NCBI GenBank assembly: GCA_025360015.1
Contig: JANYCZ010000001.1
Coordinates: 62,001-126,000 of the forward strand
From: Verrucomicrobiota bacterium
Lineage (GTDB): Bacteria > Verrucomicrobiota > Verrucomicrobiia > Verrucomicrobiales > Verrucomicrobiaceae
Direction of reading: 5' to 3'
DNA: 64,000 nucleotides
Shown: in pieces, positions 45,504 through 54,446 of the stretch
Position numbering within the stretch: the first letter of the stretch is position 1
Layout: every line of letters begins with the position of its first letter
Notes under the pieces: generated by a model
What the model saw: only the letters and a program-made list of their open reading frames with translations
What the model was told of the DNA's origin: nothing
The model's database searches: none
Program-made: the position numbers and the translations under genes

Positions 45504-46616
45504 ATGCCTGATGACTACACACCCGCCACCATCGCCGCTGTCCGGCGGCTGCGTGACACCCTGGATCAAGAGGGAAAAAAACTCGTGTTCACCAACGGCT
45601 GCTTCGATCTCCTGCACGCCGGCCATGTGCGCTACCTGGAGCAGGCGCGGGCGCTCGGAGACGCGATGGTGGTCGCCTTGAATTCAGACGAGTCCGTGCG
45701 CGCGCTGAAAGGCCCGGATCGCCCGCTCAACACCGAATGCGATCGCGCGGAAGTGATGTCCGCTCTGCGCGCCGTGGATGCCGTCGTCGTGTTCGATGAT
45801 GAACGCGCCACCTCGCTCATCGAGGCCATCCGCCCGCATGTGTATGCCAAAGGGGGCGACTACACCGTGGAGTCGCTCAATCGCGAAGAACGCACAGCCT
45901 TGGAAGTCGCAGGCACGCAGATCTCCATCCTGCCACTCGTCCCAGGTCGCTCCACCACACGCACGATCAACAAGATGCAAGGCGGTGGCGAAAGCACACC
46001 CGCCAGCAGCGGCCTGCTGCGCCTCGCCGTGCTCGGCTCGGGCGCAGGCTCCAATCTCCGCGCCATCATCGCTGCCATCGCGGACAACAAGCTGAAGGCA
46101 GAGATCGCCGTCACGCTGACCGATCAGGCAAACTCCAGTTTTCGTGAGATCGCCCGCGCGGCAGGACTGCCCGCGCTGTTTGTCGATGGCGGCGAAAACC
46201 CGCGCAAGCTGAGCGATGCCGCGCAAAAGGAAGTCTTTGAGCATCTGGAGCGCGCACGGGTGGATGTCGTCGTGCTCGCCGGATTCATGCGCATTCTCAA
46301 GGAGCCTGTCATCAGCGCATATGCGGGCCGCATTGTGAATGTGCATCCGTCTTTGCTGCCGAAATTCAAAGGGGCCAATGCGCCGCAGCTGGCCATTGAG
46401 GACGGCGAACTGGAAAGCGGCTGCACCGTGCATCTCGTCACTGCGGAGATTGATGGCGGCCGCATTCTGGCGCAGGCCAAAGTGCGGGTGAACATTGGCG
46501 ACACCGCTGAGAAACTGCATGCGCGCATCAAGGTGGAGGAGCACAAGCTCCTGTCGCAGGTGCTGAACGAATGGCGTGAACGTGGTCTTCCCGTGCGAGG
46601 TGCGGGTGCGTCATGA
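45504..46616 (+). CDS. purN: Fused RfaE2-like nucleotidyltransferase and PurN (GAR formyltransferase)
   Basis: A 370-aa two-domain protein. Residues about 1-160 are an RfaE2/HldE-type cytidylyltransferase-fold domain: TNGCFDLLHAGHVRYLEQA with the HxGH-type nucleotide site (His38 and His41) and YAKGGDY (114-120). Residues about 170-365 are PurN: GSGAGSNL at 178-185, NVHPSLLPKFKG with Asn279 and His281 at the formyl-transfer site, and Asp317 in AEIDGG. The first would activate a heptose-phosphate-like substrate, the second formylates glycinamide ribonucleotide in purine synthesis. The fusion joins two unrelated pathways. It overlaps the helicase gene by ATGA. Confidence 0.92.
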   Translation: MPDDYTPATIAAVRRLRDTLDQEGKKLVFTNGCFDLLHAGHVRYLEQARALGDAMVVALNSDESVRALKGPDRPLNTECDRAEVMSALRAVDAVVVFDDERATSLIEAIRPHVYAKGGDYTVESLNREERTALEVAGTQISILPLVPGRSTTRTINKMQGGGESTPASSGLLRLAVLGSGAGSNLRAIIAAIADNKLKAEIAVTLTDQANSSFREIARAAGLPALFVDGGENPRKLSDAAQKEVFEHLERARVDVVVLAGFMRILKEPVISAYAGRIVNVHPSLLPKFKGANAPQLAIEDGELESGCTVHLVTAEIDGGRILAQAKVRVNIGDTAEKLHARIKVEEHKLLSQVLNEWRERGLPVRGAGAS

Positions 46617-48619
46617 GCGCCTTCACCGGAACACTCAATGCCCAGCAACGCGAGGCCGCCACGACCATCAACGGCCCTCTGCTTATTCTTGCGGGCGCAG
46701 GCACGGGCAAGACGCGTGTGCTCACCGCGCGCATCAGTTTCATGGTGAATGAAGGCATCAATCCGAAGAACATTCTTTCCGTGACATTCACCAACAAGGC
46801 GGCCAATGAAATGCGCGAGCGTGTCAAAGGCATGGTGCGCGACGGCCTTGGCAAGAAGGTCGTCGTCGGCACCTTCCACGCGTTCTGCGTGCGCCTGCTG
46901 CGCGAGTTTGCCGAGCATGTCGGCTACAAGAACAACTTCGCCATCTACAGCCAAGGCGAGCAGGAAAGCCTGATCAAACGCGTGCTGCAAACGCTGCTGG
47001 TGAAGGATGAGACGCTGGATTCCAGCATGGCGCTCTCACGCATCAGCAAGGCCAAGAATGCCGGCGAGACTTTGGGAGATCCCAAGGAAAGCCTCGATGC
47101 TGCAGTCATGGAAAAGTACATGGACGAGATGCGCGGGCTGAACGTCATGGACTTCGACGACCTCATCATTCTTGGTGTGCGTCTTCTCGAAGATCATGCC
47201 GATGTGCGTGCCACGGTGCAGAGCCGCCATCACTACGTCATGGTGGATGAGTTTCAGGACACCAACTCCCTCCAGATGCGCCTGCTGCGTGCGCTGGTAC
47301 CTGCGCCGTACAATGTCTGCGTGGTGGGAGATGATGACCAGTCCATCTACGGCTGGCGCGGTGCGGAGATCACCAACATCACCGAGTTCGAAAACTTCTT
47401 CCCCAATCCCCATGTGGTGAAGCTGGAGGAAAACTACCGCAGCACCACGCCCATCCTGCACACGGCCAACAGCCTCATCAAAAACAACGTGGGCCGGCGG
47501 CCCAAGACCCTGTGGAGCCGCAATCATGGCAGCGATCTCGTCCGCCTCATTGCAAACGAGGATGACAAGGAGGAGGCGGACATGATTGCGAAGGACGTGG
47601 AGACCGCCCACTTTGCGAACAAGCAGCCCCTGGAAGATTTTGCCGTGCTGTTCCGCACCAACGATCAATCACGCGTGCTGGAGCAGGCTTTCCGCCAGCG
47701 CAAGATCGCCTACCGCGTGGTGGGTGCGCGCAGCTTCTTTGACCGCCGTGAAGTGAAGGACATCCTCAGCTACCTCAGTGTCCTTCACAATCCTCACGAC
47801 GACATGTCGCTGCTGCGTGTGCTGAACACACCCACGCGTGGCATCGGCAGCGCCACCGCCGAGCTCGCACGGGAGCGCAGCATGGAAAAGCACCACAGCA
47901 TCTGGGTGGCGCTGTGCGATGATGATTTCCTCCGCCAGATTCCCGAGAAGGCGCGCACTGCCATCCGCACCTTCACCAGCCTCATCGTCAAATATTCCGG
48001 CCCCGCCAATACCCCTGGCACGCAGCTCATCGACATGACGCAGGCCCTGATTCTGGAAATCGGCTACATGGAGCATCTCAAAAAAGCCGCCAAGGAACCG
48101 GAAGATTTTGCCGGCTGGGAGAACGGTCTCAATGAACTGTTCAAAAGCATGACGGCGCATGCGGAGCGCGACCGCGCCAGCGGCCTCGCCGGTTTCCTCG
48201 ATGAAGTCAGCCTCAATGATGAGCGCGAAGAAAAAGACGACATCGAAAAGAAAAAGGGCGTGTGCCTCATCACCATGCACGCCTCCAAGGGGCTCGAATT
48301 TCCCGTCGTGTTTCTGCCTGGAATGGAGCAGGGGATACTGCCCCACAAACGCAGCTTTGACGAAGGCCGTGTGGATGAAGAGCGCCGCCTCTTCTACGTC
48401 GGCATCACCCGTGCCAAGCAGAAGCTCACGCTCAGCCACACGCGCACGCGCATGAAGTGGGGCAAGAAGCAGAGCAACATGCCCAGCACCTTTCTCAAGG
48501 AGCTCGACCGCAAGTACGTTGAAGAACTCGACTACACCAAGCACATGAACGAAACTGTGACGCAGGAGGAAAATACCAATTTCTTCTCCGGGCTGCGGGC
48601 CATGATGACGGAGAAGTAA
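46613..48619 (+). CDS. UvrD/PcrA/Rep-type DNA helicase
   Basis: A 668-aa superfamily 1 helicase. Walker A AGAGTGKT is at residues 27-34, followed by SVTFTNKAANEMRER (motif Ia), VDEFQDTN (Walker B), VGDDDQSIYGWRGAE (motif III), ENYRSTTPIL (motif IV), LITMHASKGLEFPVVFLPG (motif V) and RRLFYVGITRAKQKL (motif VI). It unwinds DNA in repair or replication restart. The start overlaps the purN-fusion stop. UvrD, PcrA or Rep cannot be distinguished here, though PcrA/UvrD is more likely than Rep. Confidence 0.95.
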   Translation: MSAFTGTLNAQQREAATTINGPLLILAGAGTGKTRVLTARISFMVNEGINPKNILSVTFTNKAANEMRERVKGMVRDGLGKKVVVGTFHAFCVRLLREFAEHVGYKNNFAIYSQGEQESLIKRVLQTLLVKDETLDSSMALSRISKAKNAGETLGDPKESLDAAVMEKYMDEMRGLNVMDFDDLIILGVRLLEDHADVRATVQSRHHYVMVDEFQDTNSLQMRLLRALVPAPYNVCVVGDDDQSIYGWRGAEITNITEFENFFPNPHVVKLEENYRSTTPILHTANSLIKNNVGRRPKTLWSRNHGSDLVRLIANEDDKEEADMIAKDVETAHFANKQPLEDFAVLFRTNDQSRVLEQAFRQRKIAYRVVGARSFFDRREVKDILSYLSVLHNPHDDMSLLRVLNTPTRGIGSATAELARERSMEKHHSIWVALCDDDFLRQIPEKARTAIRTFTSLIVKYSGPANTPGTQLIDMTQALILEIGYMEHLKKAAKEPEDFAGWENGLNELFKSMTAHAERDRASGLAGFLDEVSLNDEREEKDDIEKKKGVCLITMHASKGLEFPVVFLPGMEQGILPHKRSFDEGRVDEERRLFYVGITRAKQKLTLSHTRTRMKWGKKQSNMPSTFLKELDRKYVEELDYTKHMNETVTQEENTNFFSGLRAMMTEK

Positions 48620-48638: not shown

Positions 48639-50306
48639 ATGTCTCCCTCCCGTCTCCAGTTTCAGCTCGATGCCCAGGCCAGCGACTCCCGCGCCCGTGC
48701 CACCACGTTTCATACGCTGCACGGCACCATCCAGTCGCCGCTCTTCATGCCCGTGGGTACGCAGGCCACGGTGAAGGCGCAGACGCAGGAGTCCCTGTAC
48801 GCCTCAGGCTCGCAGATCCTGCTGGCCAACACCTACCATCTGCTGCTACGTCCTGGTCCTGATGTCTTCACCAAGCTCGGCGGCATTCACCGCTTCATGC
48901 ACTGGCCCGGCTCCGTGCTCACCGACTCCGGCGGCTACCAGATTTTCTCGCTGCCGCACTCACGCTCCATGACGGAGAAAGGCGCGGTGTTTCAGAGCTA
49001 CGTCGATGGCCAGCGCATCCTCCTCAGCCCGGAGCTCAGCATTCAAACCCAGCGCGCCATCGGCAGCGACATCATGATGGTGCTGGACCAGTGCATCCCC
49101 TCCACGGCCGATGAAGCCACAGCCCGCGCAGCTTTGCAAGTGACCCAGCGCTGGGCCGTCCGCAGCCTCGCCGCGCGTGAGGACTCGCCGCAGTCCATGT
49201 TCGGCATCGTGCAGGGCGCGCTGTATCCGCAGCTCCGCCGCGAGAGCGCCGCAGGTCTCATGCAGCTCGACTTCGACGGCTTCGCCATCGGTGGCCTCGC
49301 CGTGGGCGAGGAAAAAAACGAGCGCGAAGACGTCTGCGAGCTCACCGCCGCCCTGCTCCCCGCAGACCGCCCCCGCTACCTCATGGGCGTCGGCACCCCT
49401 GTGGATGTGCTGGAGGCCGTGCATCGCGGCGTGGACATGTTTGACTGCATCATCCCCACGCAGGTGGCCAAGCGCGGCACCGCCTTTACCTCAAAGGGCA
49501 TCGTCGAACTCCGCCGCTCCGTGTACAAATTCAGCGAGGACCGGCTCGATCCCACCTGCACCTGCCCCGTCTGCGCCACGCACAGCCGCGCCTACCTGCA
49601 CCACCTCACCAAGACGCAGGAGCCGCTCGGCTGGACGCTCGTAGGCCAGCACAACATCCACTTCTACCACCAGCTCATGCGCGAGATCCGCCAGAGCATT
49701 TTAGAAGACCGCTTCATGCCGCTCTACCGCGAGCGCCGCGAGATCCTGCAGATCGAAGACATCGACCACCCCGTCACCCACCCCAAGCGCACCTCCACCA
49801 AGCCGCAGAGCGAAGGCGACTACGAGCTCCACGGCGAGCCTCCCGCCATCCGCCACATCCCCAGCGGCCACACGCTTTCCACCACGCCGCAGCTCGACAC
49901 CGCCATCGAGTCCCAGCTCATCCAGCAGCTCCGCCAGCCCGCCGATGCCCCGCCGCTGATCGTGTGGGACACCCACCTCGCCATTGCAGCCACAGCGCTC
50001 GCCGTCATCCTCCTTTACGAAGCCGAAGCCGCCAAAGGCCCCCTCCGCCCGCTGCATCTCGTCAGCTTCAGCGCAGACCTCGCCCCGCTGCGCCTCGCCC
50101 TCCACCACAAGCGCCACTTCCCCTGCCTCCGCCACGGCGCCGCCGACACCCTCATCCGCCGCGACGCCTGGGAATCCCGCTACTGCCCCGGCTTGAAGTG
50201 GAATCTCATCCACGGCACTCACGCAGACATGCAAACGCAGGCCCCGGCAGCAGACGTCGTCATTGAGCACCGGCCCACCCAGCGCCAAAGTACTCCAGAG
50301 CTTTAG
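48639..50306 (+). CDS. tgt: tRNA-guanine transglycosylase fused to a degraded methyltransferase-like domain
   Basis: A 555-aa protein; bacterial Tgt is about 375 aa. Residues 1-380 are a complete Tgt: TDSGGYQIFSLPH with Asp96, GGLAVGEEKNEREDV, nucleophile Asp269 in DMFDC, and zinc ligands Cys307, Cys309, Cys312 and His338. The guanine-to-preQ1 exchange in GUN-anticodon tRNAs is expected. The usual PTR after the nucleophile loop is PTQ. Residues about 400-545 (IVWDTHLAIAATALAVIL, PLHLVSFSADLAPLRLALHH) resemble an MnmC/DUF752-type Rossmann methyltransferase but lack a clear GxG and the C-terminal part. The final QSTPEL and stop come from a palindromic element. Confidence 0.9.
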   Translation: MSPSRLQFQLDAQASDSRARATTFHTLHGTIQSPLFMPVGTQATVKAQTQESLYASGSQILLANTYHLLLRPGPDVFTKLGGIHRFMHWPGSVLTDSGGYQIFSLPHSRSMTEKGAVFQSYVDGQRILLSPELSIQTQRAIGSDIMMVLDQCIPSTADEATARAALQVTQRWAVRSLAAREDSPQSMFGIVQGALYPQLRRESAAGLMQLDFDGFAIGGLAVGEEKNEREDVCELTAALLPADRPRYLMGVGTPVDVLEAVHRGVDMFDCIIPTQVAKRGTAFTSKGIVELRRSVYKFSEDRLDPTCTCPVCATHSRAYLHHLTKTQEPLGWTLVGQHNIHFYHQLMREIRQSILEDRFMPLYRERREILQIEDIDHPVTHPKRTSTKPQSEGDYELHGEPPAIRHIPSGHTLSTTPQLDTAIESQLIQQLRQPADAPPLIVWDTHLAIAATALAVILLYEAEAAKGPLRPLHLVSFSADLAPLRLALHHKRHFPCLRHGAADTLIRRDAWESRYCPGLKWNLIHGTHADMQTQAPAADVVIEHRPTQRQSTPEL

Positions 50307-50360
50307 CTCGTTCCGGAAGCGCCGCCCCTCCCAGAGCGAGCTAAAGCTCCTGAGTACTTT
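50287..50360. repeat. Large inverted repeat at the 3' end of the tgt fusion gene
   Basis: Arms 50287-50310 and 50337-50360 pair at 22 of 24 positions (two internal mismatches) around a 26-base loop. The arms contain the motif GAGCTTTAGCTC and AGTACT, both short palindromes. The left arm overlaps the last 20 bases of the tgt-fusion gene and provides its stop codon; no T tract adjoins, so it resembles a REP/BIME-type element more than a classic terminator. Confidence 0.9.
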
Positions 50361-53024: not shown

Positions 53025-53135
53025 GGAGGTCGGAGTTTGGGCCGAAAGTGTAAACTTCAAAGAACAAAGTTCACCTCAACCTGAACTCTGTTCGCAGTTG
53101 CACAGGCGCAGAATCCGTTGTTTTTCACCGGAACC

Positions 53136-54446
53136 ATGTCCCATCCTGCCCCAGCGCCCACGCACCTCGATCTCTCAAAGCTCGGCGAGCCCGTCTATCG
53201 CGGCTCCGTGCAGAATCTCTACGCCGTGCCAGGCCATCCGGGCTACGTCGTCTGCGAGACCACGCCTGCGGGCTCCGTCTTTGACGTCGGCTCGATTTTC
53301 AACATCGAAGGCAACGATCTGAACCGCGCCATCTTCCGCCACGCCATGTACTCCCGCCTCGCCCAGCCGGAGACCTGGCAGCGCGTCAAGAAGGCCATTG
53401 AAAACACGCCGATGGATGCTTCCTGGCGCAAGGAACTGCTCACCGGCCCCATGGAAACCATGCTGGAGCGCGGCGCAGCCACGCACCATGTTGGCATGGT
53501 GGACGCCGTCACTGGCGAGATCGTCCGCACCGGCCTCCCCAAGCATCCGAGCTGCTACAATGTCGTGCGCCGTTTCCCGGTCATGCACCCGCCGCAGCGC
53601 CACCTCCTCGGCACGCACGTCTTTGACTACGCCCAGTTTCATCAGAGCTCCACCTACGTGGTGCCGCTGGAGTACATCGTGCGCTTCGGCGTCACCAGCG
53701 GCTCGTCCATCCTGAAAAAATACCAAGGTCTCAGCGAAGCCGCCAAGCGCAGCTACGAGCAGGAGCTCGGCCTCTCCAAGCCCATGGCCGTGTGGGACAT
53801 GCTGGAGCGCCCCATCTATGATCTCACCAGCAAGTACGAGCCCGAAGACCGCGCCGTGAGCAAGCAGGAGGCCCTCATGATGTCCGGCCTCAGCAGCGAT
53901 GACTTCCTGCACACGGTGAAGCTCGCCATCCTCGGCGGCTGGGCCGTGCGCGAGCTCCTGGAAAGCGCCGGTCTCCTGCTGTGGGACCTCAAATGGGAGT
54001 TCGCCGTGGATCGCGAGGAACTCCTCTTCGTGGACACCATCGACGCCGACTCCTTCCGTGGCACCACCTTCCTCGATGTCGAAGGCCGCAAGCTCGTCAT
54101 CCATTACAACAAGCAGGCCATGCGCGACTACTACCGCCTCGTACATCCGGATTGGTATGCCGGCATCAATGAGGCCAAGCTCCAGGCGCAAAAGGTCGGC
54201 AAGCCCTTCAAACAAGTGCTCAAGGCCGGGCAGGGCGAGGGCAAATGGCCGCAGACCCCCGTGGTGGACATCGAATTCCTCGATCTGCAGGCCCGCAAGA
54301 CCGCCCTCATCCGTCAGCACGTCGCCTCAGAGCGCGATGCCGCCGCCATCCGCGCCGATCTGGAAGCCACCGGCGCAGCCGAAGTCGAGTTCTACCGCCA
54401 GCGCGGTTTGCTGGCGGATCTGCTCAACGCAAACGCCGTTGGTTGA
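53136..54446 (+). CDS. purC: Phosphoribosylaminoimidazole-succinocarboxamide synthase, elongated
   Basis: A 436-aa SAICAR synthetase, well above the 230-300 aa usual for PurC. The start (LGEPVYRGSVQNLYAVPGHPGYV) and the block TSGSSILKKYQG fit family positions. The conserved KWEFAVDREELLFVDTIDADSFRG and the SKYEPEDRAVSKQEAL block are characteristic. The extra length is spread through the middle and C-terminus (a region with a PETWQRVKKAIENTP segment) and looks like a lineage-specific insertion rather than a fusion. It adds aspartate to CAIR in purine synthesis. Together with the PurN fusion, two purine enzymes of the window have unusual architecture. Confidence 0.85.
   Translation: MSHPAPAPTHLDLSKLGEPVYRGSVQNLYAVPGHPGYVVCETTPAGSVFDVGSIFNIEGNDLNRAIFRHAMYSRLAQPETWQRVKKAIENTPMDASWRKELLTGPMETMLERGAATHHVGMVDAVTGEIVRTGLPKHPSCYNVVRRFPVMHPPQRHLLGTHVFDYAQFHQSSTYVVPLEYIVRFGVTSGSSILKKYQGLSEAAKRSYEQELGLSKPMAVWDMLERPIYDLTSKYEPEDRAVSKQEALMMSGLSSDDFLHTVKLAILGGWAVRELLESAGLLLWDLKWEFAVDREELLFVDTIDADSFRGTTFLDVEGRKLVIHYNKQAMRDYYRLVHPDWYAGINEAKLQAQKVGKPFKQVLKAGQGEGKWPQTPVVDIEFLDLQARKTALIRQHVASERDAAAIRADLEATGAAEVEFYRQRGLLADLLNANAVG

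Follow-up and report, generated by a model that had tools for sequence, protein, structure and literature searches.

A tRNA-guanine transglycosylase joined to half of an MnmC2-type methyltransferase fold in a verrucomicrobial genus

A 64,000-nucleotide stretch of DNA from a Verrucomicrobiota bacterium of the family Verrucomicrobiaceae (contig JANYCZ010000001.1, positions 62,001 to 126,000; hereafter the window) contains a gene in which a tRNA-guanine transglycosylase (Tgt) is followed by a C-terminal region that a first-pass annotation, made from the sequence, read as a truncated and decaying methyltransferase of the MnmC/DUF752 type. What is this region, what did the joined protein look like before it was shortened, and is the remaining part in decay? 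We consider it likely that the gene, here called Tgt2, is a truncated, genus-wide form of a widespread Tgt-MnmC2 fusion that is found beside an ordinary Tgt, and that methyl transfer has been lost and the remaining half is constrained.

A complete Tgt followed by half of a methyltransferase fold

The ORF is a real gene (Table 1), and the Tgt domain that had been described as complete is indeed so: PF01702 covers it with 468 bits in a Pfam search of the ORF, and the match to TIGR00430 reaches 437.6 bits, above the cut-off of 306.75, as expected of a full-length bacterial TGT. The same Pfam search found no FAD-dependent oxidase domain in the ORF. In the window's genome there is a second, canonical Tgt (G000:C34) that is 45% identical to the window Tgt, and the QueA, QueF, MnmG and MnmM genes are all present.

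Table 1. Features of the Tgt2 locus, in window coordinates.
Feature	Position	Strand	Remarks
Whole gene Tgt2, with truncated MnmC2-like C-terminal domain	48639..50306	+	555 aa, ATG start
Tgt domain, residues 18-368	48690..49742	+	PF01702 E=1.9e-140; residue table
N-terminal half of MnmC2-type methyltransferase fold, residues 382-555	49782..50303	+	AlphaFold, PDB matches, purifying selection
SAM-binding glycine loop remains, residues 444-448, DTHLA (DVGLG in intact relatives)	49968..49982	+	
Ser478 replacing the SAM-ribose-binding Glu (E. coli MnmC Glu101; Glu in 75/75 intact relatives)	50070..50072	+	
UvrD/PcrA-type helicase gene, upstream	46613..48619	+	ends ~20 bp before Tgt2 start
Palindromic repeat, 33-bp arms	50287..50360	.	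supplies the ORF's last codons and stop

The C-terminal region is silent in family profiles: its last 178 residues (378-555) gave no Pfam or NCBIfam match of their own, and PF05430 did not match the ORF at E<=10. Structure search, in contrast, leads to the MnmC fold. The AlphaFold model of the ~174 residues has a pLDDT of 92.4 and a pTM of 0.87, its best PDB matches are 2qy6 (Z 10.7) and 3ps9 (Z 10.3), and all six top VIA-align matches (6/6) are MnmC or MnmC2. Residues 11-168 of the model align onto MnmC 28-203 only (Z 10.7), so both the assignment to a Rossmann methyltransferase of the MnmC/DUF752 type and the missing C-terminal half hold up. The region is conserved in more than 35 congeners and is therefore not a chance occurrence.

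The glycine motif is also changed, as had been noticed, and reads WDTHLA in the window as compared to WDVGLGA in intact relatives, with His and Ala at the two Gly positions. Glu101 of MnmC holds the ribose of SAM, and Asp178 probably acts as the base (PMC3648344); the window copy has Ser at the position of Glu101 and no equivalent of Asp178. The window protein has almost certainly lost methyl transfer and probably keeps base exchange.

Intact relatives and the history of the truncation

In a set of 143 relatives, most congeners' proteins have ~530-590 residues, and proteins of ~670-690 residues occur in two other genera of the family and in a further family (f4). The longer proteins match Methyltransf_30 (PF05430) with E values from 9e-13 to 3e-5, and strong matches to this profile among the 143 genomes came from fusions only; ORFs of 525-600 aa with a weak match (E ~1e-4) were regarded as unrelated methyltransferases. 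When we scanned contigs of one genome per species, covering 84,980 species, we found 358 relatives, and among the best 80 of these, 79 carry Tgt and an MnmC2-type methyltransferase in a single frame, which bears out the reading of the locus as a fusion. The fusions, at least 79 in number, span Verrucomicrobiota (including the isolate Chthoniobacter flavus Ellin428), Acidobacteriota, Myxococcota (Kofleriaceae) and Bdellovibrionota, and the hosts of relatives with a whole methyltransferase include many other soil and water bacteria. No neighbouring gene is conserved around 80 flanked fusion loci, and our literature search found no paper describing a Tgt-DUF752 fusion. The fusion family is a new architecture built of known parts. 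One genome with an intact fusion has a further, divergent copy (L255, G260:C5) whose methyltransferase motifs are altered (WDVTMGTAGNAM, LHDCFATQ).

A profile built from five intact domains, searched against PDB sequences, found Aquifex MnmC2 (3vyw) first (E=5e-10) and E. coli MnmC next, and the predicted fold of an intact domain (pLDDT 94) has 3vyw as its top structure match (E=9e-16). The intact relatives share with MnmC2 the GxG motif and the equivalents of Glu101 and Asp178 (each kept in 75/75 aligned intact fusions) as well as the C-terminal Lys (74/75); they differ from it by being fused behind a Tgt and by not conserving MnmC Pro182, a residue whose equivalent is kept in 15/17 stand-alone verrucomicrobial DUF752 proteins. 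These stand-alone proteins are close sisters of the fused domain, scoring ~150-200 bits against its profile. The homologues thus neither all end at the same place nor all carry the window's motif, and longer ones with an intact GxG and a C-terminal half, which the first-pass annotation had proposed to look for, exist; the window copy retains the N-terminal half only, without SAM-binding or catalytic residues. Among known systems, the bifunctional MnmC (MnmC2-MnmC1) likewise joins a methyltransferase of this family to a second wobble-modification domain, but there the partner is an FAD oxidase and here it is Tgt, with the Tgt first and the methyltransferase last. MnmM (YtqB, PF06962), encoded by an unrelated gene in the window's genome, is a possible functional replacement and not a relative.

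In the truncated proteins, equivalents of Glu101 and Asp178 are found in 0 of the 37 that we examined, and the two glycines are kept in 22/37 and 27/37 and lost in the window's sub-clade. In a tree of the Tgt domain, 36 of the 37 form a single clade (SH-aLRT 98) that lies within the intact proteins, indicating that the truncation in the window's genus is one old event. The sole outlier (L062 in G047) sits on a deep branch, keeps Glu157 and is apparently a second, independent truncation, which makes at least two in all.

We rejected several trivial causes of a short ORF. A frameshift or sequencing error is out because congeners end nearby and there is no downstream remnant of the missing half; downstream of the window gene we found no convincing trace of it. 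Nor is the palindromic repeat that supplies the stop codon the cause: congeners lacking it are truncated as well, and its effect is confined to the final codons of the ORF in the closest relatives. The repeat has 80 matches over both strands of the window's genome (about half as many places), and it forms the end of the Tgt2 ORF in several close relatives too. One further apparent truncation, in G333, is a contig edge, with the remainder on another contig.

Selection on the remaining half

To quantify constraint on each part of the protein, we calculated pairwise dN/dS within the window's clade. The Tgt part gives 0.054, the linker 0.29 and the truncated half 0.155, the last over 28 pairs with a range of 0.07-0.27 and with sub-clade medians of 0.07-0.16. 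For the intact methyltransferase domain in f4, omega is 0.175. The remaining half-domain is under purifying selection and is constrained rather than drifting, although a low omega reveals constraint and not which function is constrained. The dN/dS result disfavours the reading in which the C-terminal region of the window protein is a relic decaying neutrally. Such a relic might be expected from the changed glycine loop, the lost Glu and Asp and the variable tails; however, the half-domain is retained throughout the genus, its alignment contains invariant residues, and the model predicts with high confidence a compact fold that would stand on its own. We therefore regard a neutral relic as highly improbable. 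The description of the fusion as "decaying here" is wrong in tempo and in scope: the truncation is genus-wide and old.

In the explanation that we favour, the Tgt half of the intact relatives, with its catalytic residues in place, would exchange the wobble guanine, and the SAM-dependent domain, by its homology to MnmC2 and its conserved catalytic residues, would N-methylate an aminomethyl group on the wobble base. An ancestor of the window's genus lost the C-terminal part of the methyltransferase, with the last sheet strands and the catalytic Asp, and the SAM-binding Glu changed as well, as did the glycine loop in the window's sub-clade. The half-domain, predicted to fold alone and held by purifying selection, would most likely play a structural part or help to position the tRNA, attached to a Tgt that is still active. 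Loss of the methyltransferase was probably tolerated thanks to MnmM, the unrelated nm5U enzyme that these genomes carry: MnmM is present in all Verrucomicrobiales of a 32-genome set but one 76%-complete MAG. MnmM alone does not force the loss, since intact fusions coexist with it in some genomes (in family f4 and genus g93).

A second Tgt class and the substrate of the intact fusions

To compare the Tgt half with canonical Tgt, we tabulated residues (Z. mobilis numbering) in 125 members of the fused family and 31 canonical Tgt. In all 125 fused-family members, Asp102, Ser103, Asp156, Cys158, Gln203, Gly230, Val233, Glu235 and Asp280 are present, as is the zinc site CxCxxC...H (Cys3-His), so the catalytic, base-binding and zinc residues of a complete bacterial Tgt are shared. 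In contrast, Arg286 has been exchanged in every member (125/125), Glu157 in 124/125 and Arg289 in 122/125, and Asn290 is also replaced family-wide; the window Tgt, which further differs from canonical Tgt in being a second copy with an extra C-terminal domain, has Gln at 286 and Lys at 289, positions that are both Arg in 31/31 canonical Tgt. We take Arg286 and Arg289 to be anticodon-loop contacts in the Z. mobilis TGT-RNA structure, a feature of specificity rather than one that defines the family, and their replacement suggests that tRNA recognition by Tgt2 is altered. By match counts, 43 of the 44 intact-fusion genomes of our class sample have retained a further Tgt, which makes it unlikely that Tgt2 and the canonical Tgt are redundant. 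The metal site of the canonical Tgt in this set (including L069, the copy at G000:C34) looks unusual, with the first zinc Cys missing in 16/31 and the second replaced by His in 18/31, whereas Tgt2 keeps Cys3-His.

MnmM is a known nm5(s2)U34 methyltransferase, and mnmC and mnmM are mutually exclusive (PMC9976899). The pattern in our sample of 336 genomes of the class (78 with stand-alone DUF752, 91 with MnmM, 44 with an intact fusion) agrees, with stand-alone DUF752 and MnmM found together in 0 genomes as compared to ~21 expected. This exclusivity is in line with a reading that we hold only tentatively, in which the intact fusion is the organism's MnmC2 and converts nm5U34 to mnm5U34 with Tgt as its tRNA-binding partner, the window's genus having lost this step as MnmM does the same job. 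Among the 44 intact-fusion genomes, 32 have neither MnmM nor stand-alone DUF752, which speaks for this reading, but 7 have stand-alone DUF752 and 5 have MnmM. Another nm5U methyltransferase is depleted where the fusion is present (12/44 genomes, against 152/287 without a fusion; Fisher p=0.002, phylogeny ignored), yet 135 of the 336 genomes have none of fusion, DUF752 and MnmM, so absence is common. MnmG, found in nearly all genomes examined, and the conserved MnmC2 catalytic residues are consistent with nm5U34 as substrate; the variable Pro182 is not, nor is the choice of tRNA, since Tgt (GUN anticodons) and MnmC2 (nm5U34 tRNAs) act on non-overlapping sets.

The first-pass annotation proposed that the fusion would have coupled two wobble modifications; that the two tRNA sets differ suggests that the intact fusion may instead carry out two steps on one base. 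PreQ1 and nm5U both place a primary aminomethyl on the wobble base, and it is conceivable, if somewhat unlikely, that preQ1 put in place by the Tgt half is then N-methylated at this group by the methyltransferase half to give 7-(methylaminomethyl)-7-deazaguanosine, perhaps outside the GUN tRNAs. Fusion partners often act sequentially, and 29/31 genomes have QueF, the enzyme that makes preQ1; however, QueA is there too and targets the amine in question. The residue table fits this proposal, with the preQ1-binding residues kept and Arg286 and Arg289 changed, as do the retention of another Tgt and the 12 genomes in which the fusion coexists with MnmM or stand-alone DUF752, while the depletion of other nm5U methyltransferases in intact-fusion genomes does not. 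We know of no methyl-preQ1 nucleoside from tRNA, which counts against it; N-methylated preQ1 has reportedly been described from phage DNA. In G268 (L242), a separate DUF752 gene comes immediately after a canonical-type Tgt on the same strand, an unfused form of the pair that also fits this proposal.

The nm5U34 and preQ1 readings are mutually exclusive refinements of the truncated-fusion explanation, with the remaining probability going to some other substrate: co-occurrence mildly favours nm5U34, and fusion logic mildly favours the preQ1 aminomethyl. The more specific proposal that intact fusions make an undescribed wobble nucleoside, with preQ1 inserted (possibly outside the GUN set) and its amine methylated, and that the window's genus keeps insertion only, is in our estimate unlikely. 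The Tgt-MnmC2 fusion would imply either a hidden mnm5U34 route in bacteria where neither stand-alone MnmC2 nor MnmM occurs, or a 7-deazaguanine wobble modification that is new, and the truncated genus offers a natural separation of both activities. With a second bacterial Tgt class, changed in its anticodon-contact residues, found almost always beside the canonical one, the rule of "one Tgt, four GUN tRNAs" may fall short for these bacteria.

We do not count the uvrD neighbour as part of a Tgt2 system, as it adjoins the gene only in the closest relatives. Elsewhere in the window, the ORF at 45504-46616 (+) is an unusual fusion in which a cytidylyltransferase-like domain (RfaE/HldE C-terminal type, PF01467) and a formyltransferase (PurN type, PF00551) lie in one polypeptide, and the ORF at 53118-54446 (+) encodes a 442-residue protein with a partial match to SAICAR synthetase, above the usual length.
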